Assembly (NCBI RefSeq): GCF_000282575.1 | Contig: NZ_AKJA01000060.1 | Span: 1-64,000 of the forward strand | Direction: 5' to 3' | DNA length: 64,000 bases | DNA from: Herbaspirillum sp. YR522 | GTDB taxonomy: Bacteria > Pseudomonadota > Gammaproteobacteria > Burkholderiales > Burkholderiaceae_D | Shown: positions 6,847 to 37,167 of the stretch, piece after piece | How positions within the stretch are numbered: position 1 is the first letter of the stretch | Layout: every line of letters starts with the position of its first letter | Notes under the pieces: generated by a model | The model's database searches: none | What the model saw: only the letters and a program-made list of their open reading frames with translations | Told to the model about the DNA's origin: nothing | Made by a program: the position numbers and the translations under genes

Positions 6847-7021
6847 GCGGCTGATGATCTTGTTGGTTTCGTGCCAGGCCGCACCTCCCCGGGAGACGGC
6901 ATCGATTCGGTCGCCAGGCGCTCGAAAAATGACGGTTCATTTTACCGAGTTGCCATAGGGCGGGGGCGCTTTTTGCCGGGACTTGGGCTTGCCGCATGCA
7001 CGGGCGCGGCAAGTGTGGCTT

Positions 7022-10546: not shown

Positions 10547-10760
10547 GTGCTTCTCCCCGTAATGGACATCTGCTGGATGACCGAACTGCTGTGATTGATT
10601 ATTGTGAAAGAAATAACAAAAATCAAGAAAGACAACGTGATGCCGGGCCGCGCACATTGGTATTGTGCTACGGCATCGGGCGTTGTTGAAATCTTAATTT
10701 CTTACGGGAAGCGGCGTAATCGGGATTTTCCCGGGGTGGGGCAAAAAAGACGATCGGGGA

Positions 10761-12729: not shown

Positions 12730-12847
12730 AGCATCGGTGGCCAGCCGGCCGCCCAGACCTAGAGGCGACACGCCCACGTAACGCCATGCCAGGACGAAAC
12801 ACCGCCGGCACCGGAAGCATGATCCCGGGATTCAATCAATATCACTC

Positions 12848-14542
12848 ATGGATTCGCACATTATGACGATCACCAACCGCCTGATCATTACCCTGGCGAC
12901 CGCCTTGCTCGCCCTGCTGTTCGTCGGCGGCGACGGACTGCTGCAATTGCATCGCGCGCAGCAGCGCCTGGACACCATCCAGAATCGCATCATCCCCAGC
13001 ATCGAGGGACTCAACGCTGCCAAGAGCGCGCTGGTCAATACCCGGCTGGCCGGTTATCGCCTGGCGGTATTCGGCAACCTGCCCGACAAGAGCGCCTTGC
13101 AGAAGACCCTCGACGTGACCAACAAGACCCTCGACGACGAGCTGGCCCGTTACGAGAAGGAACGTGTCTACGACGACACCGACCGCGCCATGATCGTGGC
13201 CGACAAGGCGAACGTTGAAGCCTATCGCAAGGCGCTGATCCCATTCTTCGCCGCCGCCTACGAAAACAACATGGACGGCGTGCGCGCCACGCTGGAAGCC
13301 GGCACCCCGCTGGCCGTCACGGCTGGCGCCGCGGCCAAGGGTTTCGACGAGCACATCGCCTATAACGGCAAGCTGATCGCCGCCGTACGCGCCGAGAGCG
13401 ACGAAGCCTATGCCTTCGCCTTTCGCGCGATGGTCGCGGTGATCGTGGTGGCGGTGCTGGTGACGGCATTGCTGGGCATCCAGCTGCTGCGCCACCTGAG
13501 CCGCAGCCTGGGCAAGATCCAGGAGAACTTCGAGCATGTGAGCCAGACCCTCGACCTGTCGCGCCCGGTCCCGGTCGAGCGCATGGACGAGATCGGTCGT
13601 ACCGCCACGGCCTTCAACAAGTTGCTGGCGCGTATCGTCGACGTCATCGCCACCACCCGCGTGTCGACCGACTCGGTGAGCGTGGCCGCGCGCCAGATCG
13701 CTGCCGGCAATGCCGACCTGTCGGCCCGTACCGAACAGCAGGCAGCGGCCCTGGAAGAAAGCGCATCGAGCCTGGAGCAATTGACGTCGGTGGTGCAGCA
13801 GAACACCGAGAACGCCCGCGCTGCCAACAAGCTGGCACTGTCGGCCTCCAACATCGCATCGCAGGGTGGCGATGTGGTGCGCCAGGTGGTCGACACCATG
13901 AACTCGATCAACGATTCCTCGCGCAAGATCGTCGATATCATCGCAGTCATCGACGGTATCGCGTTCCAGACCAATATCCTGGCGCTCAACGCCGCCGTGG
14001 AAGCCGCGCGTGCCGGCGAGCAGGGGCGTGGGTTCGCCGTGGTGGCCTCCGAGGTGCGCTCGCTGGCCCAGCGCTCGGCCGCCGCCGCCAAGGAAATCAA
14101 GTCGCTCATCGATGATTCGGTCGACAAGGTCGGCACCGGCAGCAAGCTGGTCGAGCAGGCCGGCGCCACCATGAGCGAAATCGTCGATAGCGTCCAGCGC
14201 GTGACCCAGATCGTGGGCGACATCGCCAGCGCCAGCGAAGAGCAGAGCTCCGGCATCACCCAGGTCAACCTGGCGGTGTCGCAGATGGATCAGAGCACCC
14301 AGCAGAACGCTGCACTGGTCGAGGAAGCCGCTGCCGCCGCCCAGGCCCTGCAGCAACAGGCCGAGACACTGGAGCAGGTGGTCAGCGTGTTCAAGCTCGA
14401 CGCCGCGCGCCTGGCCTCGCCCCAAGCCCAACCCCAGCAAATGCCGAGCCGCGCCGCGATCGACATCACACCGGCCAATGCGCGCCTCAAGGCCAGCCAT
14501 CCGCAGGTCAAGAAGTTGAGCGTGGAGATGGAAGAGTTCTGA
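12848..14542 (+). CDS. Methyl-accepting chemotaxis protein
   Basis: Chemoreceptor of 564 residues. It has an N-terminal membrane segment (about 9-28), a helical periplasmic ligand domain, a second membrane segment (about 194-218), HAMP, and a signalling hairpin nearly identical at its tip to that of the other chemoreceptor in this window ([20 protein letters not shown]). The C-terminus ends SVEMEEF and has no WETF-like tether. Met6 (12863) is an alternative start. It stands alone between the patatin-like gene and a strong terminator. The ligand is unknown. Confidence 0.93.
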   Translation: MDSHIMTITNRLIITLATALLALLFVGGDGLLQLHRAQQRLDTIQNRIIPSIEGLNAAKSALVNTRLAGYRLAVFGNLPDKSALQKTLDVTNKTLDDELARYEKERVYDDTDRAMIVADKANVEAYRKALIPFFAAAYENNMDGVRATLEAGTPLAVTAGAAAKGFDEHIAYNGKLIAAVRAESDEAYAFAFRAMVAVIVVAVLVTALLGIQLLRHLSRSLGKIQENFEHVSQTLDLSRPVPVERMDEIGRTATAFNKLLARIVDVIATTRVSTDSVSVAARQIAAGNADLSARTEQQAAALEESASSLEQLTSVVQQNTENARAANKLALSASNIASQGGDVVRQVVDTMNSINDSSRKIVDIIAVIDGIAFQTNILALNAAVEAARAGEQGRGFAVVASEVRSLAQRSAAAAKEIKSLIDDSVDKVGTGSKLVEQAGATMSEIVDSVQRVTQIVGDIASASEEQSSGITQVNLAVSQMDQSTQQNAALVEEAAAAAQALQQQAETLEQVVSVFKLDAARLASPQAQPQQMPSRAAIDITPANARLKASHPQVKKLSVEMEEF

Positions 14543-22340: not shown

Positions 22341-25300
22341 TCAGGCGCGCGGCGCGCGCTGCAGCAGTGGTTTGTCATGGTGCATCGTCAGCGAGCCCAT
22401 CTGCTGCTGCTGGTGCTGCAGCAGTTGCAGGAATTTATCCAGCGGCACCGGTTTGCTGAAGTAGTAACCCTGGTATTCGTCCGATCCGAATTCGCGCAGC
22501 GCATGCAGCTGCTTGGCCGTTTCCACCCCCTCGGTGACCACCTTCAGGTTCAGCGCATGGCCCATGGCGATGATGGCCTGGACGATGGCGCTGCCGTTGG
22601 GATCGTCGGGAATATCGTTGATGAACGACTTGTCGATCTTGAGCGTGTTGACCGGGAAGCGCTTGAGGTAGGCCAGCGACGAGTAACCGGTACCGAAGTC
22701 GTCGATCGAGATCGTGAAGCCTTCGGCGCGGATGCCGTCCATGATGGCGATGGCCTGGTCGCGGTTGTGCATCACCATGCTCTCGGTGATCTCGAACTCC
22801 AGGCAGGACGCGGGCGTGCCGTGCGCGGCCACCACTCGCTTGATGTCGTCGAGCAGGTTGGCGTCGCCGAACTGGCTGCCGGTGAGGTTGATCGAGATGC
22901 GCCCGAATTGCATGCCGCGAGCCAGCAACTGGGCGCTGTCACGGCAAGTGGTATCGAGCACGGCCAGCCCGATCTGGTCGATCAGGCGGGTCTCTTCGGC
23001 CAGCGTGATGAATTCGCCGGGCGGCAGCATACCGCGCGCCGGATGCTGCCAGCGTACCAGCGCCTCGGCGCCCACGATCAGGCCGGTGGCCAGGTTGACC
23101 TTGGGCTGGTAGTACACCACGAACTCGCCACGCTCGATGGCGCGCCGCAGTTCGGCTTCCAGGGCGATGCGCTCGACCGTATTGGTGTTGACCTCGTCCG
23201 AGAAGAACCGGTAGTCGTCCTTGCCATGATGCTTGGCGCGGTACATGGCGATATCGGCGTTCTTGATCAGCGCCTGCGCATTGTTGCCATCGCCGGGGTA
23301 GGTGGCGATACCGATACTGGCCGACAGTTGCGCCTCCTGGCCGTCGATGATGAAGGGCTTGCGCGCTTCTTCCAGCAACTTCTGGGCGATCTCGCCCAGT
23401 TGCAGCGGATCGTCGAAATCGTCGACCAGCACGATGAACTCGTCGCCGCCCACGCGCGCCAGGATATCGAGCTCGCGCAGGCAACCGCGGAACCGCAGGG
23501 CGATCTCCTTGAGCACCGCCTCGCCCGTCTCGTGGCCGAAGGTGTCGTTGATGTTCTTGAAGCGGTCCAGGTCCATCAGCAGCACCGCCACCATGCCGTC
23601 GCGGTGCTCGGCATGGGTGATGGCGTTGCTGACATGCTGGGTGCACAGGAATCGATTGGGCAGGCCGGTCAGTTCATCGTAGTGCGCCAGGTGGCGGATC
23701 CGTTCGTCGGCGCGCCGGCTTTCGATGGCCACGCTGGCCAGGTCGGCGGCGATGTTGGCCAGTTGCAGGTATTCGGAACTGGGCGCCTGGTTTTCCTTGA
23801 GCAAGGCCGAGAACACGCCCAGCAATTGCCCTTCCTTGCCGATGATCGGCCAGGCGGCGCACGAGGGGTACATCTCGGCGTCGATCAACGGGCGCAGGTT
23901 CTCGATCATCGGGTCGCGTGCGATATCGGTGACGATACAGGGCGCACGGCGCAGCGCCGCCTCGGCGCCGACCCCATTGCCGTGGCGGATGGCCATGCCC
24001 TGCAACAGCCGCATCAGGCTCTCGGGGTGGCGATGGCTCAGCACCGAGGTGAAGTGGGTGGCCTGCTCGTTGACCAGCAGCACGCAGCAGGCGGCATAGG
24101 GAATCTGCGAATCGGCGAAGCTGACGATCTCGGACAGGATCGCGTCCAGGTCCTGGTCGGCCATCACCATGTGCAACACCCGGTTCTGCTGGCTCTGGAG
24201 CAATTCGGCGCGCTTGCGTGCACTGATGTCGCGCAGGATGGCGAAGATCGCATAGCCGCGATCGAGCTCGGCGCGGTTGAGCGTGACATCGGTATAGATG
24301 ATCTTGTTGCGCCTTACCGTGACCCACTCGAACTGCTGCGGCTGGCCCGACAGGGCGCGGCCCACCAGGTCGTCGATATCGGGCTGTTCGATATGGATCG
24401 ATTTCTGGCGCGAGAACAGCCCGACCTTGCGGCCGACGATGCGGTCCTTGTCGGGCACCCCGAAGAAACGCACGGCGGCCACGTTGCAATCGAGATAGCG
24501 CAGATCCGACGAGATCAGCACGATCGGATCGGCACCTTCCTCGTAGAGCTTGCGGTAGCGGTATTCGCTGACCGTGAGCGCGTTGTCGATGCGCCGCTGG
24601 TAGCGGTAATACACCAGGAACGAGATGAGCGCGATCAGGATGAAGCCGAGTATGCCCGAGGCCAGCAGGATACGGTTCTCGGTGCGGCTGCGCCAGGGCG
24701 CCAGCACGTCGTCCATGCGGCGCGCATAGACCACCAGCACCGGCCAGTCCTGTAGCCGCTTGTAGGTAAACAGCAACTGCTCGCCGGTAAGGTGGGAAAC
24801 GTCCTCGAACCCGCCTTCTTCCGGGCCGCTGCGAATACGCGTCATGCTCCTGGCATCGCGCAGGTTGGTGTTGAGCCAGCGCGGCTCGAAGGGCGAGCGG
24901 ATCAGCATCAGGCCATCGTCGCCACGCAGCGAGACGATCGCCTCGAAGTTGGTGATGCGCTTGTAGAAGTCGAAGAAGTAGGACGCACGCAGCTCGGCCA
25001 CCAGCATGCCCAGGTGACCGGTACGGTTATCGTACAAATTCATGGCAATCGGCAGTACCAGTTCCTGGTTGTAGCGGCTACGGGTGAGGGGACCGACGAA
25101 CAGGCGCGGCCGGGCCGGGTCGGTATCGATGAAGCGCAGCTTGAGATCGTCCGGATTGAGTTCCTGGTCAAGCGGGCGCAACGAACTGGCGCGGTTGGCG
25201 CCATTGGCGTCGACCAGGCGCAGCGCCAGCACAGACTGCATGCGCTGCTTCTGCTGGCTGAGCAATTGGTAGAGGGCCTGGTTGTCCTGGAGCAGGCCTT

Positions 25301-25553
25301 CGCCATTGGCGAGCCGCTCGGCAGTCGTGGTGAGCATCGCGTCGACGTTGCGAAAGGCGCTGTCGGCGTGCTCCTGCACGCTGCGTACCGCCACCAGCGA
25401 ACCATTCTTCTCGGCATCGATGGTCAATTGCCGGTCCTGGCGGATCTCCCACCAGGTCTGCACCACGATGCAGGATCCGACGAACGCCACGAAAAGCAGG
25501 AGCGTTCGCAAGGTGTTACCCGTCCGCCCGGCCGTTTTTTTCTGATTTCCCAT
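22341..25553 (-). CDS. Cache-PAS-GAF-GGDEF-EAL signalling protein
   Basis: A 1070-residue inner-membrane c-di-GMP enzyme. Membrane segment 1 lies at about 14-35, with a large Cache-like periplasmic sensor to about 292 and membrane segment 2 at about 294-316. PAS follows (about 325-450), then GAF (about 460-610), a GGDEF domain with intact GGDEF at 702-706, and an EAL domain with EAL at 830-832 plus FEITES and IDDFGTGYSSLAYLK. Both cyclase and phosphodiesterase motifs look complete. An RELD four residues and more before the GGDEF (RELDILARVGGDEF) matches the RxxD inhibitory site. It stands alone, so inputs are small molecules sensed outside (Cache) and inside (PAS/GAF). Confidence 0.94.
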   Translation of the reverse strand: MGNQKKTAGRTGNTLRTLLLFVAFVGSCIVVQTWWEIRQDRQLTIDAEKNGSLVAVRSVQEHADSAFRNVDAMLTTTAERLANGEGLLQDNQALYQLLSQQKQRMQSVLALRLVDANGANRASSLRPLDQELNPDDLKLRFIDTDPARPRLFVGPLTRSRYNQELVLPIAMNLYDNRTGHLGMLVAELRASYFFDFYKRITNFEAIVSLRGDDGLMLIRSPFEPRWLNTNLRDARSMTRIRSGPEEGGFEDVSHLTGEQLLFTYKRLQDWPVLVVYARRMDDVLAPWRSRTENRILLASGILGFILIALISFLVYYRYQRRIDNALTVSEYRYRKLYEEGADPIVLISSDLRYLDCNVAAVRFFGVPDKDRIVGRKVGLFSRQKSIHIEQPDIDDLVGRALSGQPQQFEWVTVRRNKIIYTDVTLNRAELDRGYAIFAILRDISARKRAELLQSQQNRVLHMVMADQDLDAILSEIVSFADSQIPYAACCVLLVNEQATHFTSVLSHRHPESLMRLLQGMAIRHGNGVGAEAALRRAPCIVTDIARDPMIENLRPLIDAEMYPSCAAWPIIGKEGQLLGVFSALLKENQAPSSEYLQLANIAADLASVAIESRRADERIRHLAHYDELTGLPNRFLCTQHVSNAITHAEHRDGMVAVLLMDLDRFKNINDTFGHETGEAVLKEIALRFRGCLRELDILARVGGDEFIVLVDDFDDPLQLGEIAQKLLEEARKPFIIDGQEAQLSASIGIATYPGDGNNAQALIKNADIAMYRAKHHGKDDYRFFSDEVNTNTVERIALEAELRRAIERGEFVVYYQPKVNLATGLIVGAEALVRWQHPARGMLPPGEFITLAEETRLIDQIGLAVLDTTCRDSAQLLARGMQFGRISINLTGSQFGDANLLDDIKRVVAAHGTPASCLEFEITESMVMHNRDQAIAIMDGIRAEGFTISIDDFGTGYSSLAYLKRFPVNTLKIDKSFINDIPDDPNGSAIVQAIIAMGHALNLKVVTEGVETAKQLHALREFGSDEYQGYYFSKPVPLDKFLQLLQHQQQQMGSLTMHHDKPLLQRAPRA

Positions 25554-26082
25554 TAGACGAATATCGAAACCAACTGTCGTATACGTGTCGCTATATGCGA
25601 ATTATGCAGCGTTCTGCTGCAACCCCTTTTGATGTCCGGCCATTGCCGGACCTACGTTTTTTCGACAGACCACATCGGTCCATTACCTGCCTGGCGATCA
25701 AGCCCCTGCATGCGATGCCAGGCACTGCCGGCGTACGTGCAAATTACGTGGTCCCTGTCAATCGGATTAACTGCATTGGCAGTATGCCACTATCCGTTCC
25801 ATCAGATTATTTTTGTTAGTGTCGAGGTGGTGGTTAGCGCACGGTCTGTCGGTTTTCTGTTCACACCTGTCTTGTTTTGATGCGGCGCGTTTTGACATTG
25901 TCTGGTCGAACATTACCGCATGCGCCGACCTTTGTCACCAGCGCCGCGGCATGCCGCAACACCTGGCCGGCGAATTGTCAGTTTGCCATCGGGCACGCCG
26001 CCAGCGCTCGGCAATGCCCGGTTTGCAATGCGATAATGCACACATTACCGTTCAGCGACTTCAACCTCGGATCCAATCTCTA
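25554..26082. other. Long divergent intergenic region
   Basis: About 530 bases between the minus-strand GGDEF-EAL gene and fghA. It is AT-richer than the genes and contains the small palindrome CGTATACG at 25578-25585. Open frames here have codon use unlike the neighbours, including one in frame with fghA, and I do not support them as genes. It probably holds both promoters. Confidence 0.5.
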
Positions 26083-27051: not shown

Positions 27052-28617
27052 TCAGTGCGCCGCCGAGGCCTCGGCAGCGCCGGCGCCGCCCTTGGATGGC
27101 TTGATGATCCAGATCAGCGGGATGATGGCCAGGAAGATGATGGCCGACACGAAGAAGATATCGTTGATGCCCAGCATCGCTGCCTGGAACGTAACGGTGC
27201 GCTCGATCATGCCCGCCGCCTGTTCCGTATTGAGCCCCAGCAACGAGGTGATGTTGTCCAGGCTTTGCTGCAGCCAGGGGCTGTAGGGCGTGGCATGCTC
27301 GGTCAGCTGCGCATGGTGGGTGATGGTGCGGTTGTTCCAGGCGGTGGTCGAGATCGAGGTGCCGATGGCGCCGCAGAATACCCGTACGAACGAAGACAGC
27401 CCGGCGGCGGCCGGGATCCGCTCCGGCGGCAATCCCGACAGCAACAGCACCGTCAACGGCACGAAGAACATCGCCGTCGGAATGCCCTGCAGCAGCGTGG
27501 GCATGATCACGGTCCACTGGTCGACTTCGAGGTTGTAGCGCGAGCGCAGCCAGAACACGCCGGCAAAGCAGACGAACGACACGGTGGCCACCTTGCGCGC
27601 GTCGACCAAGGGCAGGAAGCGGCCGATCAAGGGCATCAGGATTACCGCGAAGATGCCGATGGGCGCGGTCGACAGCCCCGAGTCGATGGAGCGGTAGCCG
27701 AGGTATTGCTGCAGCCATTGCGGCAGGATCACCAGGTTGCCGAAGAACACCCCGTAGCCGATCGAGATGGCAATCGTGCCGCCGGCGAAATTGCGCCGTC
27801 CGAACAGGCGCAGGTCCACCACCGGATGATCGTTGTTGAGTTCCCAGATGATGAAGTAGGCGAACGCGACGGCGGCAATCACCCCCAGCGTGATGATCAC
27901 GGGCGAGGCGAACCAGTCCAGGTCCTTGCCCTTGTCGAGCATGATCTGGAATGCCGCGACCCAGGTCACCAGCAAGGCCAGCCCGATCTTGTCGATCGGC
28001 AGCTGGCGCTTGGGGGTCTCGCGGGAGCGATAGATGGCCAGCGTGATACCGGCTGCCACCAGCCCGACCGGGATGTTGATATAGAAGATCCAGGGCCAGG
28101 TATAGCTGTCGGTGATCCAGCCGCCCAGCGCCGGCCCGGCCACCGGCGCCACCACCGCCGTCATGCCCCATAGGGCCAGCGCAAAGGACGCCTTGGATTT
28201 CGGGTAGGCCCCCAATAACAGCGATTGCGACAGCGGCACCATCGGGCCGGCCACCAGACCTTGCAGTACCCGTGCGGCGAGCAGGATGGGCAGCGTCGGC
28301 GCCAGGCCGCACAACCACGATGCGATCACGAACAGCAGTACCGACGACACGAACAGGCGCACCGCGCCCACGCGCTGGGTCAACCATCCGGTGAGCGGGA
28401 TCGAGATGGCATTGGCGGCGGCAAACGAGGTGATCACCCAGGTGCCCTCGTCGATCGACACCCCCAGGTTGCCCGAGATGGTGGGAATGGCCACGTTGGC
28501 GATCGATGAATCGAGCACGTTCATGAACACGGCCAGCGATACCGACAAGGTACCGAGCACCAGCGCGCCGCCCGTCAGGGGCGGCGGCGGGCTATAAGGA
28601 GTAGGGCTGTTGGCCAT
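27052..28617 (-). CDS. emrB: EmrB-type MFS multidrug efflux permease (DHA2 family)
   Basis: A 521-residue inner-membrane drug/proton antiporter with 14 predicted membrane segments. It has the DHA2 features FMNVLDSSIANVAIPTISG in helix 1, GWLTQRVGAVRLF (motif A) and GPALGGWITDSYTWPWIFYI (motif C region). The product works with the EmrA adaptor and outer-membrane factor encoded just upstream in the same operon to pump compounds across both membranes. It is the last gene of the operon and ends at a bidirectional terminator. Confidence 0.94.
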   Translation of the reverse strand: MANSPTPYSPPPPLTGGALVLGTLSVSLAVFMNVLDSSIANVAIPTISGNLGVSIDEGTWVITSFAAANAISIPLTGWLTQRVGAVRLFVSSVLLFVIASWLCGLAPTLPILLAARVLQGLVAGPMVPLSQSLLLGAYPKSKASFALALWGMTAVVAPVAGPALGGWITDSYTWPWIFYINIPVGLVAAGITLAIYRSRETPKRQLPIDKIGLALLVTWVAAFQIMLDKGKDLDWFASPVIITLGVIAAVAFAYFIIWELNNDHPVVDLRLFGRRNFAGGTIAISIGYGVFFGNLVILPQWLQQYLGYRSIDSGLSTAPIGIFAVILMPLIGRFLPLVDARKVATVSFVCFAGVFWLRSRYNLEVDQWTVIMPTLLQGIPTAMFFVPLTVLLLSGLPPERIPAAAGLSSFVRVFCGAIGTSISTTAWNNRTITHHAQLTEHATPYSPWLQQSLDNITSLLGLNTEQAAGMIERTVTFQAAMLGINDIFFVSAIIFLAIIPLIWIIKPSKGGAGAAEASAAH

Positions 28618-28641
28618 AGAATCTAATTGGACTGGGACGGA

Positions 28642-29856
28642 TCAGGTATGCGGCACGACCAGCGCGGCCCGGCTCTTCCTGGGTGCGGCCAGGCCACTGG
28701 CGTTGTCGCCGATGATGCGCTCGACGATATCGTCGGCCTGGCGACCGAGGTCGTTGTAGACGCTGGTCTGGTAGTTGGTGGCAACGTTTTCCAGGGCCCG
28801 GCCGTCACCGTGGATGTCTACCGTGGCAGTGGTCGACAGGCCGACCCGCAACGGATGGGCGCGCACCTGTTCGGGGTCCAGTGCGATGCGTACCGGCACC
28901 CGCTGCACCACCTTGATCCAGTTGCCGGTGGCATTCTGCGCCGGCAGCAGCGAGAAGGCGCCACCGGTGCCGGCCGAGAAGCCGACCACGGTGCCCTTGT
29001 ACTTGACGTCGCTGCCGTAGACATCGGCGATCACTTCCACCGGTTGGCCGATGCGGATGTGCCTGAGCTGGCCTTCCTTGAAGTTGGCGTCGATCCAGAT
29101 CTGCTCCAGCGGCACGATCGCCATCAAGGGCGCGCCGGCGGCGATGCGCTGGCCGACCTGCACCGAGCGCTTGGAGACAAAGCCGGCGACCGGGGCGACC
29201 ACGTTGACGCGCGCATAGGCCAGGTAGGCGTTGCGTACGGCAGCGGCCGCCTGCAGCACATTGGGGTGCTCGGTGACGCTGGTGTGGTCGGTCAGGGCGC
29301 GGTTGGCGGCAGCGGCCGCACGCGCCTGGTCCAGCGCGGCGCTGGCGCTCTTGTGGGCGTCACGGGCATGCGACACGTCTTCCTGCGACACCGCGCCCGA
29401 GGCCAGGCCGGCCTGGCGCCGTTGCAGGTCGTCGCGGGCCCGGTTCAGGTTCGATTCGGCCGCCGCCACATTGGCCGCCAGCGTATCGTTGTTGAGGAAC
29501 AGCTGGCGCGTCTGGCGCACCGCCTGGGCCAGTGCGGCTTCGGCCTGCGACAGTGCCACGCGGCTATCGGCCGCGTCCAGCGTCACCAGTTGCTGCCCGG
29601 CCTGCACCACCTGGGTGTCGTCGGTCTTGACCGAGGTCACGGTGCCGCCGACCTGGGCCGAGATCTGCACCACGTTGCCGCCCACGTAGGCGTCATCGGT
29701 TTCTTCGAAGAAGCGCGAATGCAGGAACCAGTAGAGGAAGCAGGCCACTGCGATGATCAGCAGCACCAGCGTCAACAGCAGCAACTGCAACTTGCGGCGG
29801 CCGTTGGGTTTCTTGTTGGGCGCAGCGGGTGCGCCGGGGGCGGTGGTTTCACTCAT
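28642..29856 (-). CDS. emrA: EmrA-type membrane fusion (periplasmic adaptor) protein
   Basis: A 404-residue adaptor with a short cytoplasmic N-terminus, one membrane segment (about 24-45), the DDAYVGGNVVQISAQVGGTV lipoyl half, a long coiled-coil hairpin (about 100-215) and the second lipoyl/beta-barrel region APVAGFVSKRSVQVGQRIAAG. This is the EmrA/HlyD architecture. It lies between the outer-membrane factor gene and emrB, 24 bases before the latter, completing a tripartite pump. Confidence 0.94.
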   Translation of the reverse strand: MSETTAPGAPAAPNKKPNGRRKLQLLLLTLVLLIIAVACFLYWFLHSRFFEETDDAYVGGNVVQISAQVGGTVTSVKTDDTQVVQAGQQLVTLDAADSRVALSQAEAALAQAVRQTRQLFLNNDTLAANVAAAESNLNRARDDLQRRQAGLASGAVSQEDVSHARDAHKSASAALDQARAAAAANRALTDHTSVTEHPNVLQAAAAVRNAYLAYARVNVVAPVAGFVSKRSVQVGQRIAAGAPLMAIVPLEQIWIDANFKEGQLRHIRIGQPVEVIADVYGSDVKYKGTVVGFSAGTGGAFSLLPAQNATGNWIKVVQRVPVRIALDPEQVRAHPLRVGLSTTATVDIHGDGRALENVATNYQTSVYNDLGRQADDIVERIIGDNASGLAAPRKSRAALVVPHT

Positions 29857-29941
29857 GTTTTTTTTCCGTAACGTTTGGCGTAATAAGTCGATGGCGCAGC
29901 CGGCCGGGCAGGCACGGCGCGCGACAGGTCCCGGCAGGAAC

Positions 29942-31444
29942 TCAAGGGGTGTGCGGCAGCGCCGATGGTGCGTTCAGGGCCAGCCCGGCCTGGGCCGCCT
30001 CGAAGCCACCGCCGAGCGCCTTGAACAGGGCGATCTGCTGGTCGCGGCGCGCCGCTTCCAGCGTCACCATGGCCTGGCGCTGGGCCAGCACCGCGCTCTC
30101 GGCACTGAGCAATGTCAGCTGCGACACCAGTCCCAGGCGATAGCGCTCGCGCGCCAGCTGGAAGGCCCGTTCGGCCGCCTCCAGCGCTTCACGCCGGATC
30201 GGCAACTGGCGCTCGCTGGAATGGATCTGCGCAATCTGGCGCGCGACATCGGCATAGGCGTCGTCGAGCGTGCGGTTATAGGTCGCCACCGCCAGCTCGT
30301 AGTTGGCGTACTCGCCCTTGAGCCCGGCACGCAGTGCGCCACCTTCGAAGATCGGTAGCGAGATCGCCGGGCCGAAGGCGATGCTCTTGCTGGCAGCGGT
30401 GAAGGGATTGTTGTTGAGCAGGGTGTCGAAGCCGATCATCGCCGACAGGTTGATGTCGGGATAGAAACGCGCCCGTGCCACCTCGATGCCGCTGCTGGCG
30501 GCCTCCACCTGCCAACGCGCAGCGACGATGTCGGGGCGGCGGCCCAGCAGGTTCAGTGGCAGCTCGGCCGGCAGCGGCGGCGTCACCAGGCGTGTGACTT
30601 GCGGCGGCGCCAGTTGCAGGCCGCGATCCGGGCCGCGACCGCTCAAGGCGCCCAGTTGCTGGCGCGTGAGCAGGATCTGGCCTTCGCTCTGCTCCAGTTG
30701 CGCGCGGGCGTCGGCGCTGCTGCTGCGCGACTGGTCGCGCTCGATCTGGGTGTCCAGGCCGTTGCGCACGCGCTCGCCGGTAATGTTCTGCAACGAGGCA
30801 CGCTGGTCGGCGGTGCGTTGCAGGATGTCATGCAATGCATATTGCGTGGCCAGCTGGCTATAGGCCGAAACGATGGCCGCCGTCAGCACCAGGCGCGCTT
30901 CCTGCTCGCTGGCCTGGCTGGCCTTTTCATTGGAAATGGCTTGTGCCAGGGCCGTATGGTTCTTGTTCCACAGGTCGAGTTCGTAGCCGATGTTGAGCAT
31001 CGCCTTCTTCTCGTTGTACCAGTTGCCGCCATAGGGCTCGGGGTAGATGGTGGTGGCCGAGAACTGGTTGCGGGTAAATGAGGCGTCGGCGGTGACACTG
31101 GGCAGCAGCGGCGCGCCACGCGATTCGGCGATGGCGCCGGCGGCGGCAATTCGTGCGCGGGCCTGTTGCAGGCCCGGGTTGGCGGTCAAGGCTTCGTCGA
31201 TCAGGCGCACCAGCTGGTCGTCGCCGAACAGGCGTACCCAGTCGCTGCCGGGCCATTGGCCGGTACCGGCCTGGCTCGGGTCGGCCAGGCTGCGTTCGGT
31301 GGCGAAATCGGTCGGTCGGGCCATCTTGCGGTCGCTGCCGATGCCCTCGAAACTGGCACAGCCCGACAGGCCGACCATACCGATGAGGGCGGTGACGACG
31401 GCAATCGCCCGAAGCCGATGGGCGGGCGGTTTATTACAGTGCAT
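29942..31444 (-). CDS. NodT/OprM-type outer-membrane efflux lipoprotein
   Basis: Outer-membrane channel of the EmrAB pump. A lipoprotein signal ends LSGC (lipobox about residues 27-30). Two repeated outer-membrane-efflux domains follow, with the typical WPGSDWVRLFGDDQLVRLID and LLGRRPDIVAARWQVEAASS stretches. It is 500 residues from ATG 31444; a GTG at 31456 would add four. It is the first gene of the operon and starts next to the operator region shared with the divergent TetR gene. Confidence 0.93.
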   Translation of the reverse strand: MHCNKPPAHRLRAIAVVTALIGMVGLSGCASFEGIGSDRKMARPTDFATERSLADPSQAGTGQWPGSDWVRLFGDDQLVRLIDEALTANPGLQQARARIAAAGAIAESRGAPLLPSVTADASFTRNQFSATTIYPEPYGGNWYNEKKAMLNIGYELDLWNKNHTALAQAISNEKASQASEQEARLVLTAAIVSAYSQLATQYALHDILQRTADQRASLQNITGERVRNGLDTQIERDQSRSSSADARAQLEQSEGQILLTRQQLGALSGRGPDRGLQLAPPQVTRLVTPPLPAELPLNLLGRRPDIVAARWQVEAASSGIEVARARFYPDINLSAMIGFDTLLNNNPFTAASKSIAFGPAISLPIFEGGALRAGLKGEYANYELAVATYNRTLDDAYADVARQIAQIHSSERQLPIRREALEAAERAFQLARERYRLGLVSQLTLLSAESAVLAQRQAMVTLEAARRDQQIALFKALGGGFEAAQAGLALNAPSALPHTP

Positions 31445-31754
31445 GGAATTTTTCACGTTGAATTATTTTTGGCGATGCGAGTTTGTTGTTGCTTTCGCGT
31501 TTCAGTGTTGTCCGATGGTTGTTACTCTGGCCAGCCTCGTGCTTGCCTGTAGCGCTCGCAGGGGAGAAGCCCGACCACGGCCCCCCCTGCAAATCTTTAC
31601 GCGACGACGCATAGAATTCTGACGAGTAAAAACTCATTTTTGTATTATACTCGGGGATACGAACAATAACTCATGTTGTTCAACGCGAACAATAACTCAT
31701 GTTGCGAATTCGCATCGAAATCGGCGAATTCATTACGGTAAGCTGAACTGAACA
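31445..31754. promoter_or_regulatory. Divergent promoter/operator region of efflux operon and TetR gene
   Basis: About 310 bases. A plausible rightward promoter is CTGACG (31619-31624) with TATTAT (31643-31648), spacer 18. TATAAT is also readable on the minus strand at the same place (GTATTATAC is a palindrome), so both directions may fire from here. An 18-base direct repeat and interlocking palindromes follow at 31661-31704. Confidence 0.6.
31661..31704. repeat. Tandem 18-bp repeat forming overlapping TetR-type operators
   Basis: The 18-mer GAACAATAACTCATGTTG occurs identically at 31661-31678 and 31687-31704 (26-bp period). The joint creates the 17-bp perfect palindrome TTGTTCAACGCGAACAA (31676-31692), and a second inverted pair GAACAA/TTGTTC frames 31661-31681. 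It lies between the efflux operon and the TetR gene, the expected place for its binding site. Confidence 0.75.
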
Positions 31755-32372
31755 ATGAAACTGCAACCCCGCAAGGAACCCCGCCAGGCCCGTTCGCGCG
31801 CAATGGTCGACACCATTCTCGATGCCATGTCGCGGGTACTGGTCGAACGTGGCTATGCCAAGACCAACACCAACCTGGTGGCCGAGTCGGCTGGCATCAG
31901 CGTCGGTTCGCTGTACCAGTATTTTCCCAACAAGGATGCGTTGATCTTCGCGCTGCGCGAGCGTCATGTCTCGCGCATGCTGGCCCTGTTCGAGGATGTG
32001 GCGGCCCATATCGACGGCGCCGGCTCGCTGCGCGACGACTTCGAGGCCCTCATCGACGCGCTGGTGGCCGCCCATCTGCTGGAGCCCGAACTGAACCGCA
32101 TCCTCGAAGAAGAATTCCCGGCCTATAACCTGCCGGTGTCGGGCGAGGTGCGACAGCGTTTCTTCGACGCCATCCGCGGTGTGCTGCAAAAGCACCGGGG
32201 CGTGGTCACCCCGCCCGACCTGGACGTGGCCACCTTCGTCATCCAGCGCATGTTGAAGGCGCTGATCAATGCGGTGGTGCTGACCGGCCCCGGCGGGTTG
32301 TCGGCCGGCAGCGTGCGGCCCGAGATCCTGCCGGCGGTGATGGGCTACCTGACTTCGCCCCGTGCCGCCTGA
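31755..32372 (+). CDS. TetR-family transcriptional repressor of the adjacent efflux operon
   Basis: A 205-residue regulator. The N-terminal TetR helix-turn-helix (about 12-60) reads RGYAKTNTNLVAESAGISVGSLYQYFPNK, the family signature (quoted here in two overlapping parts: RGYAKTNTNLVAES and GISVGSLYQYFPNK). The C-terminal ligand-binding half is all-helical and variable. It is divergent from the emrAB-type operon with palindromic repeats in between, so it probably represses that operon and itself. The inducer is unknown. Confidence 0.93.
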   Translation: MKLQPRKEPRQARSRAMVDTILDAMSRVLVERGYAKTNTNLVAESAGISVGSLYQYFPNKDALIFALRERHVSRMLALFEDVAAHIDGAGSLRDDFEALIDALVAAHLLEPELNRILEEEFPAYNLPVSGEVRQRFFDAIRGVLQKHRGVVTPPDLDVATFVIQRMLKALINAVVLTGPGGLSAGSVRPEILPAVMGYLTSPRAA

Positions 32373-32521
32373 GCCGGCATCGATGGGGTAATACTGCCGT
32401 TTGGCAACTCAGAAAAGTCCTTATTTCTTTTCCGCAGCGCTGCCGTATAGTGAGTGAAATTGATTGCCGGGCGTACCGCATGGTGCGTGGGGCCGGCCCT
32501 GATTCCATTCACTTTCATTCA

Positions 32522-33142
32522 ATGATGCGGCACACGACAAGCGCCCGATGGCGGGCAGGCATGCTGGTGGCAGGGGCGATCCTGGCCGGGCCGCTCCAGG
32601 CAGCGGTAACGGTACAGGTGCTGGACGCGGCCGGGCAGCCGTTGCCCAATGCGGTGGTGTATGCCGAACCTCTGGTGGGCAGCAACGCCAAGCCGGCCCG
32701 CCAGGCCGTGATCGAACAGAAGGACAAGACCTTCTTTCCCCTGGTGTCGGTGGTGCAGGCCGGCACGGCGATCGTGTTTCCCAACAACGATTCGGTGCGT
32801 CACCACGTCTATTCCTTTTCTCCCGCCAAGACCTTCGAACTGAAGCTGTATTCCGGCACGCCCGGTAGCCCCGTGGTGTTCGACAAGCCGGGTACCGTGG
32901 TGCTGGGTTGCAATATCCACGACCAGATGGTGGCCTTCGTGCAGGTGGTCAATACGCCGTATTTCGGGGTGACCGACCGCAGCGGTACGGTACGCCTGGA
33001 TGGACTGGCCAACGGCGGCTACGCGCTCAAGGCCTGGTACTTCCGCATGCCGCAGGGCGAGCCGGCGGTCGAGCAGCCGTTGCAGGTGCAGGGAGAGGGG
33101 CGGGCATCGATCAAGCTGGGCGTCAAGGGCGTGCCGTTGTAG
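32522..33142 (+). CDS. Secreted amicyanin-like cupredoxin (annotated elsewhere as methylamine utilization protein)
   Basis: A 206-residue exported protein. The signal peptide ends near LQA-AVTV (residue 27). A beta-rich domain then carries a complete type-1 copper set: His95 (RHHVYSF), Cys130, His133 and Met136 in GCNIHDQMVAF. The C-x2-H-x2-M spacing is that of amicyanin. No methylamine dehydrogenase genes are present, so the inherited name is misleading. It is the first of four same-strand genes (cupredoxin, GGDEF-EAL, DUF3034-like, globin). Start chosen at ATG 32522 before the signal peptide; no clear ribosome site is visible. Confidence 0.88.
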   Translation: MMRHTTSARWRAGMLVAGAILAGPLQAAVTVQVLDAAGQPLPNAVVYAEPLVGSNAKPARQAVIEQKDKTFFPLVSVVQAGTAIVFPNNDSVRHHVYSFSPAKTFELKLYSGTPGSPVVFDKPGTVVLGCNIHDQMVAFVQVVNTPYFGVTDRSGTVRLDGLANGGYALKAWYFRMPQGEPAVEQPLQVQGEGRASIKLGVKGVPL

Positions 33143-33183
33143 GCGACCCCCGACCAACCATCAATACAACAAGGGGGATGTCG

Positions 33184-35574
33184 GTGCGTCTGTATCGTCT
33201 GGAAAGCAAGATCGTGGCGCTCTTCATTGCCTTGATCGTGGTAGTGCAACTGGCCGGGTTCACCGCCATTCGCACCGCCATCGATAGCAATGCGCGCACC
33301 GCCATCGTGGACGAACTGGCCATCGGCGAACGTGTGTTTGCCCGCCTGCTGGACCAGAATGCGCAGAAGCTGACCCAGGGTGCGCGCCTGCTGGCGTCCG
33401 ATTTCGGCTTTCGCCAGGCCATCGGCACCGACGATCGCGACACCATCACCTCGGTGCTCTCCAACCACGGCGCCCGCATCGGTGCCTCCATGGCAATGCT
33501 GATCGGCACCGACGGCCGCATCCGCGCCTCGACCATGGACTATCCCGATACCGACCTGCAGCGCAGCAGCCTGGAGTTGGTCGCCAAGCCCGAGTCCGAG
33601 AACGGCGCGGCCAATAACGTCATCGTCGGCGATAGCCTGTTCCAGATCGTGGCCGTGCCGGTCAAGGCGCCGGTGACCATCGCCTGGGTGGTGATGGGCT
33701 TTCCGGTCGACCAGCAACTGGTATCGGACATGCGCGCGCTGTCGTCGCTGCAGGTGTCGATCATGGTCAGCAACCGCGGCGCCACCGGCTGGGTGTCGGA
33801 TGTGTCGACCCTGCTGCCGCAGGCCAACGCCATGTTGACCGCGCAGATGGGGCGGCCCGAGTTGCACCATGCCCGCATCTCGGACTTGCGCCTGGATGAC
33901 AACGAATACCGCACCCGGCTCTTGCCGTTGGCGCGCTCTTCCAGCGGCCAGAGAGCGGTGGCGGTGCTGCAGCGCTCGGTGAGCGAGGCGGTCGCGCCTT
34001 ATCATCGCTTGCAACTGATCCTGTTGAGCATCAGCGTGCTGGGCATGATCATCGCGGCCTTGGCCAGCGCCGTGATGGCGCGCCGCATTACCAGCCCGCT
34101 GCGCGACCTGGCGGCAGTGGCCAAGCGGCTCGGCGCGGGTGACTATAGCGAGGGTGTGCATATCCGGCGCCACGACGAGATCGGTCGCCTGGCCGATGCC
34201 TTCGAGACCATGCGTGCCGAGGTCGCTTCGCGAGAACTGAAGATACTGCGGCTGGCCTACCAGGACCAGTTGACCGACCTGCCCAACCGGGTGCAATTCG
34301 CCAGCCTGCTCAACGATGCCATCGCAGCCACGCCGCAGAGCGCGCGCGGCTCGTGCCACGTGCTGATGATGGACCTGGACCGCTTCCAGCAGGTCAACGA
34401 TGTGCTCGGTCACAGCTTCGGCGATGACCTGCTGCGGCAGGTGGCACATCGCCTCGAGGCGCAATTGCAGCGGCCGATGGACCGCGTGGCGCGACTGGGC
34501 GGCGACGAGTTCGCCATCCTGCTGCCCGATACCGACCTCGACGAGGCATTGGAACAGGCAACCCAGATACTGCGGGCGCTGGACCATCCGCTGTCGCTGC
34601 AGGAGCAGACGGTCGACCTCGGCGCCGGTATCGGCATCGCCGGTTTCCCGTTGCATGGTCACACCAGCGAAGAATTGCTCTCGCGCGCCGAAGTGGCGAT
34701 GTACACGGCCAAGCGCAATGGCGCCGGGGTGATGGTGTACGACCATTCGATCGACCAGACCAGCCAGGAAAGCCTGTCACTGCTGTCCGAACTGCGACGC
34801 GCCCTGGAACGCGACGAATTCATGCTGTACCTGCAGCCCAAGCTGAACCTGGCCACCGGCGAGGTGGTCGGGGCCGAGGCACTGGTGCGCTGGGTCCATC
34901 CCGAGAAAGGCTTCATCGGGCCGGACAATTTCATTCCGTTTGCCGAGACCACCGGGTTCATCCGCCAGCTCACCACCTGGATGATGGATAAGGTGGGCCG
35001 GGTGTGCGGCGAGCTGAAGATGCATGGCATCGACCTCAAGTTCTCGGTCAACCTGTCGACCCGCGACTTGATGGACCTGGAACTGCCGGCCACCTTCCTT
35101 GGCATCCTGGGGCGTTATGGCCTCACGCCCGCGGCGTTCTGTTTGGAGATCACCGAGAGCGCCATCATGGACGACCCGGCGCGCGCGCAGCACACGCTGG
35201 AACGCTTGTCGGCCATGGGTTTTGCGCTGGGTATCGACGATTTCGGCACCGGTTATTCGTCCTTGGCCTACCTCAAGCGGCTGCCGGTGGACGAACTCAA
35301 GATCGACAAGTCGTTCGTCATGAAGATGGAGCAGGATCAGGATGACGCCAAGATCGTGCGCTCCACGGTCGACCTGGGCCATAACCTGGGCTTGCGGGTG
35401 GTGGCCGAAGGCGTCGAGAGCGAAGCGGTGTGGTTCTTGCTGCGCCAGATGGGCTGCGACCAGGGGCAGGGTTATTTCATGGGCAAGCCGATGCCGGTCG
35501 AGCGCTTCATCGAATGGTTCAATACCTGGCGTGCGCCGATGGCGCTGGACCAGTCGGAAAACGTGGCCGTGTGA
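33184..35574 (+). CDS. Membrane Cache-HAMP-GGDEF-EAL protein
   Basis: A 796-residue c-di-GMP enzyme. An N-terminal membrane segment (about 8-28) leads to a periplasmic double-Cache-like sensor (to about 275), then a second membrane segment (about 278-300), HAMP, GGDEF (GGDEF at 439-443) and EAL (EAL at 565-567, with EITES and IDDFGTGYSSLAYLK). Both catalytic signatures look intact. AAGGGGG at 33171-33177 abuts ATG 33178 but is ideally spaced for GTG 33184, so GTG is preferred. Flanking genes encode periplasmic or outer-membrane proteins, suggesting the sensor reads a periplasmic copper, haem or gas-related state. Confidence 0.92.
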   Translation: MRLYRLESKIVALFIALIVVVQLAGFTAIRTAIDSNARTAIVDELAIGERVFARLLDQNAQKLTQGARLLASDFGFRQAIGTDDRDTITSVLSNHGARIGASMAMLIGTDGRIRASTMDYPDTDLQRSSLELVAKPESENGAANNVIVGDSLFQIVAVPVKAPVTIAWVVMGFPVDQQLVSDMRALSSLQVSIMVSNRGATGWVSDVSTLLPQANAMLTAQMGRPELHHARISDLRLDDNEYRTRLLPLARSSSGQRAVAVLQRSVSEAVAPYHRLQLILLSISVLGMIIAALASAVMARRITSPLRDLAAVAKRLGAGDYSEGVHIRRHDEIGRLADAFETMRAEVASRELKILRLAYQDQLTDLPNRVQFASLLNDAIAATPQSARGSCHVLMMDLDRFQQVNDVLGHSFGDDLLRQVAHRLEAQLQRPMDRVARLGGDEFAILLPDTDLDEALEQATQILRALDHPLSLQEQTVDLGAGIGIAGFPLHGHTSEELLSRAEVAMYTAKRNGAGVMVYDHSIDQTSQESLSLLSELRRALERDEFMLYLQPKLNLATGEVVGAEALVRWVHPEKGFIGPDNFIPFAETTGFIRQLTTWMMDKVGRVCGELKMHGIDLKFSVNLSTRDLMDLELPATFLGILGRYGLTPAAFCLEITESAIMDDPARAQHTLERLSAMGFALGIDDFGTGYSSLAYLKRLPVDELKIDKSFVMKMEQDQDDAKIVRSTVDLGHNLGLRVVAEGVESEAVWFLLRQMGCDQGQGYFMGKPMPVERFIEWFNTWRAPMALDQSENVAV

Positions 35575-35633
35575 GCGGTGGTGCCAACGGTGGCGCAAGG
35601 CCCGTAGCGGGTCATGGGGATGGCGGGGGAAGA

Positions 35634-36680
35634 ATGATACGAATCGATACGCTGGCCGGCAGGCTGGTCATGGGGCTGTTGCTGGGCAGCGCGGCATTGC
35701 CGGCGATGGCGCAGCTGTCGCCCGAGGCGCAACGGGCCTGGGCGGCTGCCCAGGAACGCAAGGCCGAACAATTGATGCGCGGCGCCGGCCAGGAGCGCGC
35801 GGCCGCTGTGCCGGGCGCCGGCGCGCGCCATCCGACGCCGATGCCGCCCGAGCAACGCGATCGCTGGGTGGCGGACACGGGCAAGTTGCTTGCCACCGCC
35901 GGCGTGATCCAGGCCGAAGGCGCCGGCGGCGGCGGCCTGGCGCCCTGGGCACTGATCACCGGCTATGGCACCCGCGACAGCTATGGGGCCAATGCGCATT
36001 ACACCACCGTGCGCACCCAGGACTACACGCTCAAGTCATACGGGGTGGCGGTGGGCATCATGGACCGGGTCGAACTGTCGGCGGCCAAGCAGGAGTTCTA
36101 CGGCAGTGCCGCACCGCTGGACAAGCTGCGCATCAGCCAGGATATCTTCGGCATCAAGGTCAAGCTGGCCGGCGACGCTGTCTACGACCAGGACCTGTGG
36201 TTGCCGCAGATCGCCGCCGGTGTCATGTTCAAGCGCAACAATGGCATCGGTGGCCTGGGCGCGGTCAGCAACGTGAAGCAACTGGGCGCGGCCAGCGACA
36301 GCGGCGTCGATTACTACCTGGCGGCCACCAAGCTGCTGCTGCAACAGAGCCTGCTGCTCAACGGCACCTTGCGCCTGACCCGTGCCAACCAGATGGGGAT
36401 CCTCGGGTTTGGTGGCGACCTCGGCAACCGCTACCAGGCCATGGGCGAATTCTCGGCCGCCTACCTGGTGAACCGGCAGTTGGCCATCGGCGCCGAATAC
36501 CGCATGAAGCCACGCAACCTGTCGGCCGACAGCGAGAAGGATTACTACGATACCTTCATCGCCTGGTTCCCCGGCAAGAACCTGTCCTTGACGCTGGCCT
36601 ATGTATCGCTGGGCGATATCACCATCTATAACCCGAAGCGGCAGAACGGCGTCTACCTGTCGCTGCAAGCCGGATTCTGA
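35634..36680 (+). CDS. DUF3034-like predicted outer-membrane protein
   Basis: A 348-residue protein with signal peptide (cut near AMA-QLS, residue 25), an Ala/Gln/Arg-rich linker (about 27-80), and a beta-rich domain. That domain holds YGVAVGIMDRVELSAAKQEF, GDAVYDQDLWLPQIAAGVMF and the terminal YLSLQAGF, whose final Phe suits outer-membrane barrel assembly. I recognise this pattern as DUF3034 from memory, not from a search. GGGGGAAGA precedes the ATG. It sits between the GGDEF-EAL gene and the globin gene, 11 bases before the latter. Function is unknown. Confidence 0.75.
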   Translation: MIRIDTLAGRLVMGLLLGSAALPAMAQLSPEAQRAWAAAQERKAEQLMRGAGQERAAAVPGAGARHPTPMPPEQRDRWVADTGKLLATAGVIQAEGAGGGGLAPWALITGYGTRDSYGANAHYTTVRTQDYTLKSYGVAVGIMDRVELSAAKQEFYGSAAPLDKLRISQDIFGIKVKLAGDAVYDQDLWLPQIAAGVMFKRNNGIGGLGAVSNVKQLGAASDSGVDYYLAATKLLLQQSLLLNGTLRLTRANQMGILGFGGDLGNRYQAMGEFSAAYLVNRQLAIGAEYRMKPRNLSADSEKDYYDTFIAWFPGKNLSLTLAYVSLGDITIYNPKRQNGVYLSLQAGF

Positions 36681-36690
36681 GGAAGTCGAC

Positions 36691-37167
36691 ATGATTTCAC
36701 GCAACTTCAGCCTGTGCATCCTGATGGCTTGCCTGCCGCTGGTGGCGCCGGCCCAGTCCGCGCCACCCCTGCCACCGGCAGCATCCGCGCCGGCCGCAAC
36801 CCGGGCGGCCGACCCCAGCCTGTTCGGCGACCTGGGCGGGCTGCCGGTGATCCGGCAGGTGGTGAACGATTTTGTTGCCATCATGCTGGCCGATGAGCGT
36901 ATCGGCTTCACCTTCAAGGACACCAACCTGCCGCGCCTGCATGAAAAACTGGTGGAGCAGTTCTGCCTGCTCAGTGGCGGCGGATGTATCTATACGGGCG
37001 ATCCGATGAAGGAAGTCCACCAGGGTCTCAAGCTCACCAACGCCCACTTCAATGCGCTGGTCGAAGACCTGCAGCTGGCCATGGACCGCTCGGGCATTGC
37101 ATCGCGCACCCAGAACCGCCTGTTGGCGCTGCTGGCGCCGATGCAGCGCGACACCGTCACGCGCTGA
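36691..37167 (+). CDS. glbN: Secreted group 1 truncated haemoglobin
   Basis: A 158-residue globin. A hydrophobic signal-like N-terminus (1-22, cut near APA-QSA) and a Pro/Ala linker precede a truncated-globin domain. The proximal haem ligand is His110 in MKEVHQGLK, matching His81 of Mycobacterium tuberculosis trHbN, and GGGCIYTGDPM follows the family pattern. The position of Tyr B10, which normally stabilises bound O2, is Val62 (DFVAIM). A periplasmic truncated globin is unusual. AGGAAG before the ATG supports the start. It is the last gene of the four-gene cluster. Confidence 0.85.
   Translation: MISRNFSLCILMACLPLVAPAQSAPPLPPAASAPAATRAADPSLFGDLGGLPVIRQVVNDFVAIMLADERIGFTFKDTNLPRLHEKLVEQFCLLSGGGCIYTGDPMKEVHQGLKLTNAHFNALVEDLQLAMDRSGIASRTQNRLLALLAPMQRDTVTR

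Follow-up and report, generated by a model that had tools for sequence, protein, structure and literature searches.

The window analysed here is a 64,000-nucleotide stretch of the Herbaspirillum sp. YR522 genome (contig NZ_AKJA01000060.1, positions 1 to 64,000 of the forward strand), and it contains a cluster of four intact open reading frames (ORFs) on the plus strand, spanning 32522-37167, that encode a cupredoxin, a GGDEF-EAL receptor, a DUF3034 protein and a globin. Comparison across genomes suggests that this set is made of two modules, one consisting of the DUF3034 barrel and the globin, the other of the cupredoxin and a Cache/HAMP receptor whose output domain differs between loci. We consider it about an even proposition that the whole is a cassette for sensing outside the cytoplasm whose output can be exchanged, acting in this genome through the relay proposed below. 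Queries with the cupredoxin, DUF3034 and globin each return a single match in the 5.1-Mb genome, all at this cluster, and because the set also recurs in distant genomes, chance does not explain it.

Conservation of the gene set

We examined 120 DUF3034 loci, made up of 32 from a class/phylum draw, 8 from the genus and 80 named loci; the last are the best 80 of at least 548 confirmed relatives and lean towards Oxalobacteraceae, and the DUF3034 rows of L091/L098 and of L078/L152 are identical. Partner profiles were built from matches of the window proteins, such that weak partners may escape them, domain labels in the neighbourhood counts come from single-sequence phmmer, and Pfam annotation of neighbours covers 49 different proteins from other loci. 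DUF3034 is present in 18 of 369 class-wide and 19 of 249 phylum-wide genomes (four common to both). Within the genus, 18 of 25 genomes have it, the Herbaspirillum genome itself being counted; 16 further genomes from the order yielded one weak match. A globin lies near DUF3034 in 113 of the 120 loci, a cupredoxin scoring over 90 bits in 56 (a further 6 have just a small one), and a full dCache-GGDEF-EAL receptor in 40. All four genes occur together in 39 loci. The class/phylum draw contributes 16 of its 32 loci, the genus 8 of its 8 and the named set 15 of its 80, and the 16 from the draw are spread over 13 family codes outside the genus. The set is thus conserved well past close relatives, a point on which the initial annotation of this DNA had staked its proposal of a joint system.

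The genes remain linked through changes of order and strand. L061 has its barrel gene divergent, in L074 and L075 the two pairs point away from each other, and L142 reads DUF3034, globin, cupredoxin, EAL. Plasmids carry the set as well: a Caballeronia copy in PLSDB is annotated as DUF3034 family protein, group 1 truncated hemoglobin, 'methylamine utilization protein' (the cupredoxin homolog) and EAL domain-containing protein, and a Novosphingobium plasmid copy has a divergent order. A reverse search found 17 globin places above 120 bits in 16 of 369 genomes; DUF3034 adjoins the globin in 12 of these genomes, is about 11 kb away in one, and is missing from three.

Three Undibacterium loci (L100, L101 and L122) contain two tandem DUF3034-globin pairs, with a second cupredoxin following the second globin in L101 and L122. 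A DUF3034-globin-kinase-cupredoxin run (L172) was found outside Pseudomonadota, in a metagenome bin named Bacteriovoracaceae that may be contaminated.

The predicted DUF3034 barrel and its globin

The DUF3034 protein matches Pfam DUF3034 (PF11231) at 2.7e-96 (322.5 bits, gathering cut-off 25), and is therefore a true member of a family to which the initial annotation, with its 'DUF3034-like', had assigned it correctly and too cautiously. The tie between this protein and the globin is most direct in 11 loci where the two are fused in a single frame, in the order signal-like stretch, globin, barrel. A model of one fusion (L125; mean predicted local distance difference test score, pLDDT, 87.9) has a globin followed by 12 barrel strands. 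Its globin part fits trHbN at a root-mean-square deviation (rmsd) of 1.2 Å, and its barrel part resembles the structures of FapF, KdgM and NanC, of which the latter two are small porins. On the strength of this model, DUF3034 is probably an outer-membrane barrel of 12 strands.

The globin has Bac_globin as its sole Pfam match (58.9 bits, cut-off 21; 7.1e-16) and matches trHb1 structures. It is a group 1 truncated globin by family score, fold and proximal His, the last being present in 115 of 115 aligned rows (His110 in the window), and it is predicted to bind haem. Cys92 and Cys99 are each kept in 113 of these rows, position B10 is Leu, Val, Met or Ile in 107 (Val62 in the window) and position E11 is Leu in 106 (Leu87). 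Among 30 truncated globins from the class draw (L188-L217), two Cys residues in the E-F region and an N-terminus of the signal type (signal peptides being called throughout from a hydrophobic stretch rather than by a trained predictor) occur together in 19, are both missing from 11, and are never found one without the other. This strict association fits a putative periplasmic disulfide; since 8 of the 19 are not beside DUF3034, the Cys pair would mark secretion rather than membership of the cassette.

Cupredoxin and receptor

The cupredoxin falls below the Pfam cut-off (Cupredoxin_1, 14.4 bits against 27). Its model (mean pLDDT 89.1) nevertheless matches NirK, amicyanin and pseudoazurin, as does a profile search, and all 50 structural matches listed are cupredoxins or proteins with cupredoxin domains. 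The ligand set H94, C130, H133 and M136 is invariant in 52 of 52 aligned cupredoxins (window included; thinned from 58 over 100 bits, small cupredoxins left out). Three of these ligands had been named in the initial annotation, which placed the remaining His at 95, next to the invariant H94. Judged by modelled fold and ligands the product is a type-1 copper protein, with copper binding predicted. Membership of the amicyanin family (TIGR02657) was considered and rejected, as the window cupredoxin has no NCBIfam match at 0.1; TIGR02657 weakly matches 5 of the 52 homologs (best 0.00013).

The cupredoxin keeps company with a receptor whether or not DUF3034 is nearby. Of 30 cupredoxin places above 120 bits in the class draw, 11 adjoin DUF3034 and 19 lie elsewhere. 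An ORF matching the N-terminal part of the receptor is found at most 300 bases from the cupredoxin in 62 of 77 cases (49 of the 58 cupredoxins at loci with DUF3034 and 13 of the other 19), and shares its strand in 59 of the 62. As for the six of 19 with no receptor so close, L240, L244 and L246 have a dCache-GGDEF-EAL gene within 0.9 kb, L255 has a kinase 1.8 kb away, and L247 and L253 have neither receptor nor kinase.

The window receptor comprises dCache_3, HAMP, GGDEF and EAL domains by Pfam. In 42 GGDEF-EAL receptors (window included), ten EAL metal and substrate positions that were checked are complete in 40 and number nine in the other two; the GGDEF-type motif is lost in 12 of the 42. 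Together these patterns make breakdown of cyclic di-GMP (c-di-GMP) the most likely shared output of the GGDEF-EAL members. The window receptor, with both motifs intact, could make or break c-di-GMP. No CXXCH motif was found in the N-terminal, periplasmic part of any of the 42.

Exchangeable outputs

Besides GGDEF-EAL, receptors next to the cupredoxin end in a class III cyclase (L241, L242, L245, L248), a HisKA-HATPase (L243) or a Ser/Thr kinase (L060, L251, L254, L256-L258). In most of these swapped receptors the sensor part is dCache_3 by Pfam; in L254, L256 and L257 it is dCache_1 below cut-off, and in L241 it has no Pfam name and was found by phmmer. In nine loci, mostly Xanthomonadales, the receptor ends after its membrane part (eight via Pfam, L151 by eye). 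A 4HB-HAMP histidine kinase is present in L161 and L172, and L173 has the order globin, small cupredoxin, then MCP chemoreceptor.

At the swapped-output loci L241-L243, L245, L248, L251, L254 and L256-L258, no DUF3034 or globin was found in the 7-10.5 kb around the cupredoxin.

Extracytoplasmic function (ECF) sigma factor ORFs lie at most 3 kb from the core in 31 loci, ten of which are genus relatives and so not independent. In 14 of the 31 (L066, L103, L109-L113, L116, L123, L124, L128, L133, L162 and L164) an RskA-type anti-sigma ORF stands alongside, with no GGDEF-EAL receptor within 3 kb. Such neighbours are concentrated at the core: signalling ORFs number 58 within 3 kb (691 kb examined) vs 7 at 5-8 kb (538 kb), ECF sigma ORFs 32 vs 0, and RskA ORFs 14 vs 1, and some ORF of these three kinds is within 3 kb in 73 of the 120 loci. 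On a DUF3034 tree of 119 rows, which leaves out the broken DUF3034 of L056 and L073 and carries hand-set partner labels, the label changes at least 27 times and fusion 4 times. The tree was built quickly and has long branches; counting its starred branches alone, 5 changes are required for EAL and 9 for ECF. The tree label 'none' (47 of 119 rows) includes some loci with a cupredoxin or a more distant kinase.

The initial annotation had read the cluster as reporting through c-di-GMP. Its expectation of a signalling link agrees with the excess of signalling and sigma ORFs at the core, and a c-di-GMP output fits this genome; it does not fit the cassette family as a whole, because other loci have kinases, cyclases, a chemoreceptor or ECF sigma genes instead, or receptors that lack an output, which rules out c-di-GMP as the general output.

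Local context

Coordinates are collected in Table 1. The four genes share one strand, as initially annotated, and by sequence the cupredoxin, DUF3034 protein and globin look extracytoplasmic, again in line with that annotation, which had placed every non-enzyme product outside the cytoplasm. Counted from ATG starts, the intergenic gaps are 35, 59 and 10 bases; the first had been given as 41, which needs a GTG start at 33184 in place of the ATG at 33178, and the other two stand. A purine-rich stretch precedes each inner start. Terminator-like sites (4 vs 2.8 expected) are uninformative as to a single transcript, and a sigma-70 scan found 0 sites vs 1.1 expected.

The element upstream of the cupredoxin gene (CTCAGAAA..TCC to TATAGTG) has 8 places in the genome at one mismatch or fewer vs 0 in a reversed control; the other seven copies, judged by eye, are not before related genes. 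For a box of the FNR type upstream of the cupredoxin gene, the best matches in 12 sequences have 2-4 mismatches at scattered positions.

A TetR gene (31755-32372) lies 149 bases upstream of the cluster, divergent from a set of MFS, HlyD-type and outer-membrane efflux genes that faces it, the whole occupying 27052-32372 of the window. Downstream is an opposite-strand gene of the Pfam SpecificRecomb family. Other GGDEF, chemoreceptor-like and GGDEF-EAL ORFs in the window are at 5251-6936, 8795-10693, 12782-14539 and 22344-25601.

Table 1. Features of the four-gene cluster and its upstream region, in window positions.
Feature	Positions	Strand	Description	Source
Upstream stretch CTCAGAAA..TCC to TATAGTG	32408-32452	+	similar in 9 of 12 aligned genus promoters	
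Cupredoxin gene	32522-33142	+	secreted type-1 cupredoxin by predicted features; CarboxypepD_reg-like C-terminal part; ligands H94, C130, H133, M136	
Receptor/enzyme gene	33178-35574	+	membrane dCache_3-HAMP-GGDEF-EAL, 798 aa	Pfam
dCache_3 of receptor	33304-33990	+	residues 43-271, periplasmic sensor domain	Pfam
GGDEF domain of receptor	34255-34722	+	GGDEF motif and RPMD I-site both present	Pfam
EAL domain of receptor	34789-35490	+	10 of 10 checked residues	Pfam
DUF3034 gene	35634-36680	+	signal-like N-terminus; putative 12-strand outer-membrane barrel, via model of fused homolog L125	
Globin gene	36691-37167	+	group 1 truncated globin, signal-like N-terminus; His110, Cys92/Cys99, Val62 = B10, Leu87 = E11	

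Proposed mechanism and alternatives

We propose that the DUF3034 barrel holds, in the outer membrane, a periplasmic truncated globin of the disulfide type, which would bind a small ligand or report the redox state of its haem. The secreted blue-copper protein would be the redox or ligand-state partner of the Cache/HAMP receptor, so that a signal from the globin may reach the Cache domain by way of the cupredoxin, through electron transfer or docking, and in this genome alter EAL phosphodiesterase activity and hence the level of c-di-GMP. What the comparison establishes is the gene content, the linkage over long evolutionary range, the globin-barrel fusions, the swapping of outputs and the retention of metal, haem and EAL residues; which proteins touch one another, in what order they would pass the signal, what is bound and which way c-di-GMP moves are our inference. 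The polar pair that retains O2 in trHbN is missing from the cassette globin, and by analogy with NO-selective haem sensors its apolar pocket suggests that NO or CO would be favoured over O2.

Several observations weigh against a sensing cassette of this kind. No globin was found in 7 of the 120 loci (L060, L068-L071, L118, L166), the L060 genome having one about 11 kb from DUF3034, and 15 of 77 cupredoxin genes have no receptor next to them. No ORF of the signalling, ECF or RskA kinds was found within 3 kb in 47 of the 120 loci, including 10 of the 11 fusion loci; seven of the 47 own a receptor or kinase found otherwise (six Cache-only and L172), leaving about 40 still without a signalling ORF, and some of the 47 are on short contigs. 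The NO reading in particular is disfavoured by the distribution of NnrS, which is over cut-off in 12 of 28 DUF3034 carriers vs 18 of 27 non-carriers, and of NirK (4 of 28 vs 6 of 27), in a weak comparison whose 27 non-carriers were hand-picked, several from the globin match list, and include four with a family cupredoxin above 120 bits. The Herbaspirillum genome itself has neither NnrS nor NirK over cut-off. The suggestion in the initial annotation of NO, O2 or copper as the signal goes unsupported; neither NnrS nor NirK is enriched in carriers.

The same data can be read differently. Type-1 copper proteins carry electrons, the nearest solved kin of this one are amicyanin, pseudoazurin and NirK domains, and the globin has the fold of trHbN, an NO dioxygenase; the cupredoxin could therefore feed electrons to a globin that clears NO or peroxide at the outer membrane, as an envelope redox or detoxification unit with which the GGDEF-EAL enzyme is merely co-regulated. 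We think this fairly unlikely. Most globin rows have apolar residues in the places of Tyr B10 and Gln E11 of trHbN (V62 and L87 here), which led us to reject a trHbN-type NO dioxygenase, the pairing of cupredoxin and receptor persists where the fetched stretch yielded neither globin nor DUF3034, and the NnrS and NirK counts give no enrichment. That persistent pairing, with an adjacent receptor for 13 of the 19 cupredoxins that have no DUF3034 or globin in 7-10.5 kb and with four output types, is what one would expect if the cupredoxin were a copper-status sensor, docking on the Cache domain when copper-loaded or when empty, the barrel and globin being separate and useful under the same conditions. 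Such a sensor leaves unexplained why both modules are joined in 16 loci from 13 families outside the genus, and we regard it as unlikely.

The resemblance of the barrel model to FapF, KdgM and NanC, and the position of the globin N-terminal to the barrel in 11 fusions, 10 of them with no signalling ORF found within 3 kb, would also suit uptake or trafficking, in which a small molecule or haem would enter through DUF3034 and be taken over by the globin in the periplasm, with signalling to report how much is supplied. No recurring transporter was found among the annotated neighbours (some recurrent neighbours were left unannotated), and this explanation seems to us improbable. That the genes are neighbours without joint function is more improbable by far, given linkage that survives rearrangement over many families and the local excess of signalling genes relative to the flanks.

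Relation to known systems and significance

A sensing cassette as favoured here has partial counterparts among known systems. Pairs of periplasmic binding protein and receptor likewise have the gene of a secreted partner next to that of a receptor whose sensor domain is periplasmic; the partner there is a solute-binding protein, whereas in the cassette it is a type-1 copper protein. The globin shares with trHbN and other group 1 truncated globins the fold (rmsd 1.2 Å for the fusion model) and the proximal His, and differs in its signal-like N-terminus, Cys pair and apolar B10 and E11. The H-NOX and FIST haem partners of signalling enzymes are cytoplasmic. By contrast with these HnoX/NosP partners, the cassette has a globin and a copper protein with signal-like N-termini and an outer-membrane barrel, and none of the four cluster proteins matches HNOB or FIST in Pfam, so the set lacks a haem partner of the HnoX/NosP type. 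Like the cassette, HnoX/NosP signalling has a separate haem protein and signalling enzyme: a stand-alone haem protein feeds an enzyme or kinase, with c-di-GMP among the outputs, according to a review (PMC8846402). The same review ties the globin of globin-coupled sensors (DgcO/YddV) to c-di-GMP enzymes (PMC8846402); in those sensors globin and enzyme are domains of one protein, whereas the cassette globin is a separate secreted truncated globin or is fused to the barrel. Extracytoplasmic Cache sensing with a metal cofactor, for which NO is proposed, is described for haem-c Cache domains (DUF3365) in a preprint (PMC12889525); unlike these, the cassette receptors are without CXXCH (42 of 42) and the metal sites are in separate proteins.

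The function of the four-gene set appears to be unstudied: a literature search gave no description of a globin-cupredoxin-DUF3034-receptor set among the matches listed, and one may exist elsewhere. DUF3034 turned up by name in two papers of the collection searched, PMC4255298 and a retron paper (PMC12548924); in a passage of the latter it is named once, in a legend otherwise on DUF3037, probably by a slip.

It is tempting to generalize beyond this genome, and we do so tentatively, thinking it possible and on balance doubtful that Cache/HAMP receptors generally use the secreted blue-copper protein as a co-receptor, whichever of four output enzymes is involved (c-di-GMP phosphodiesterase, class III cyclase, histidine kinase or Ser/Thr kinase), that the globin-carrying outer-membrane barrel is a gas or redox antenna, and that together they form a new class of envelope receptor. 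If true, this would give a function to DUF3034, to secreted truncated globins and to the cupredoxins that carry the annotation 'methylamine utilization protein'. Bacteria would then use copper and haem proteins to sense redox, copper or gas conditions in the envelope, and could connect what they sense to signalling by c-di-GMP, cyclic nucleotides, two-component systems or Ser/Thr kinases. The output swaps found in nature offer a ready design for testing this, with one input and several outputs.

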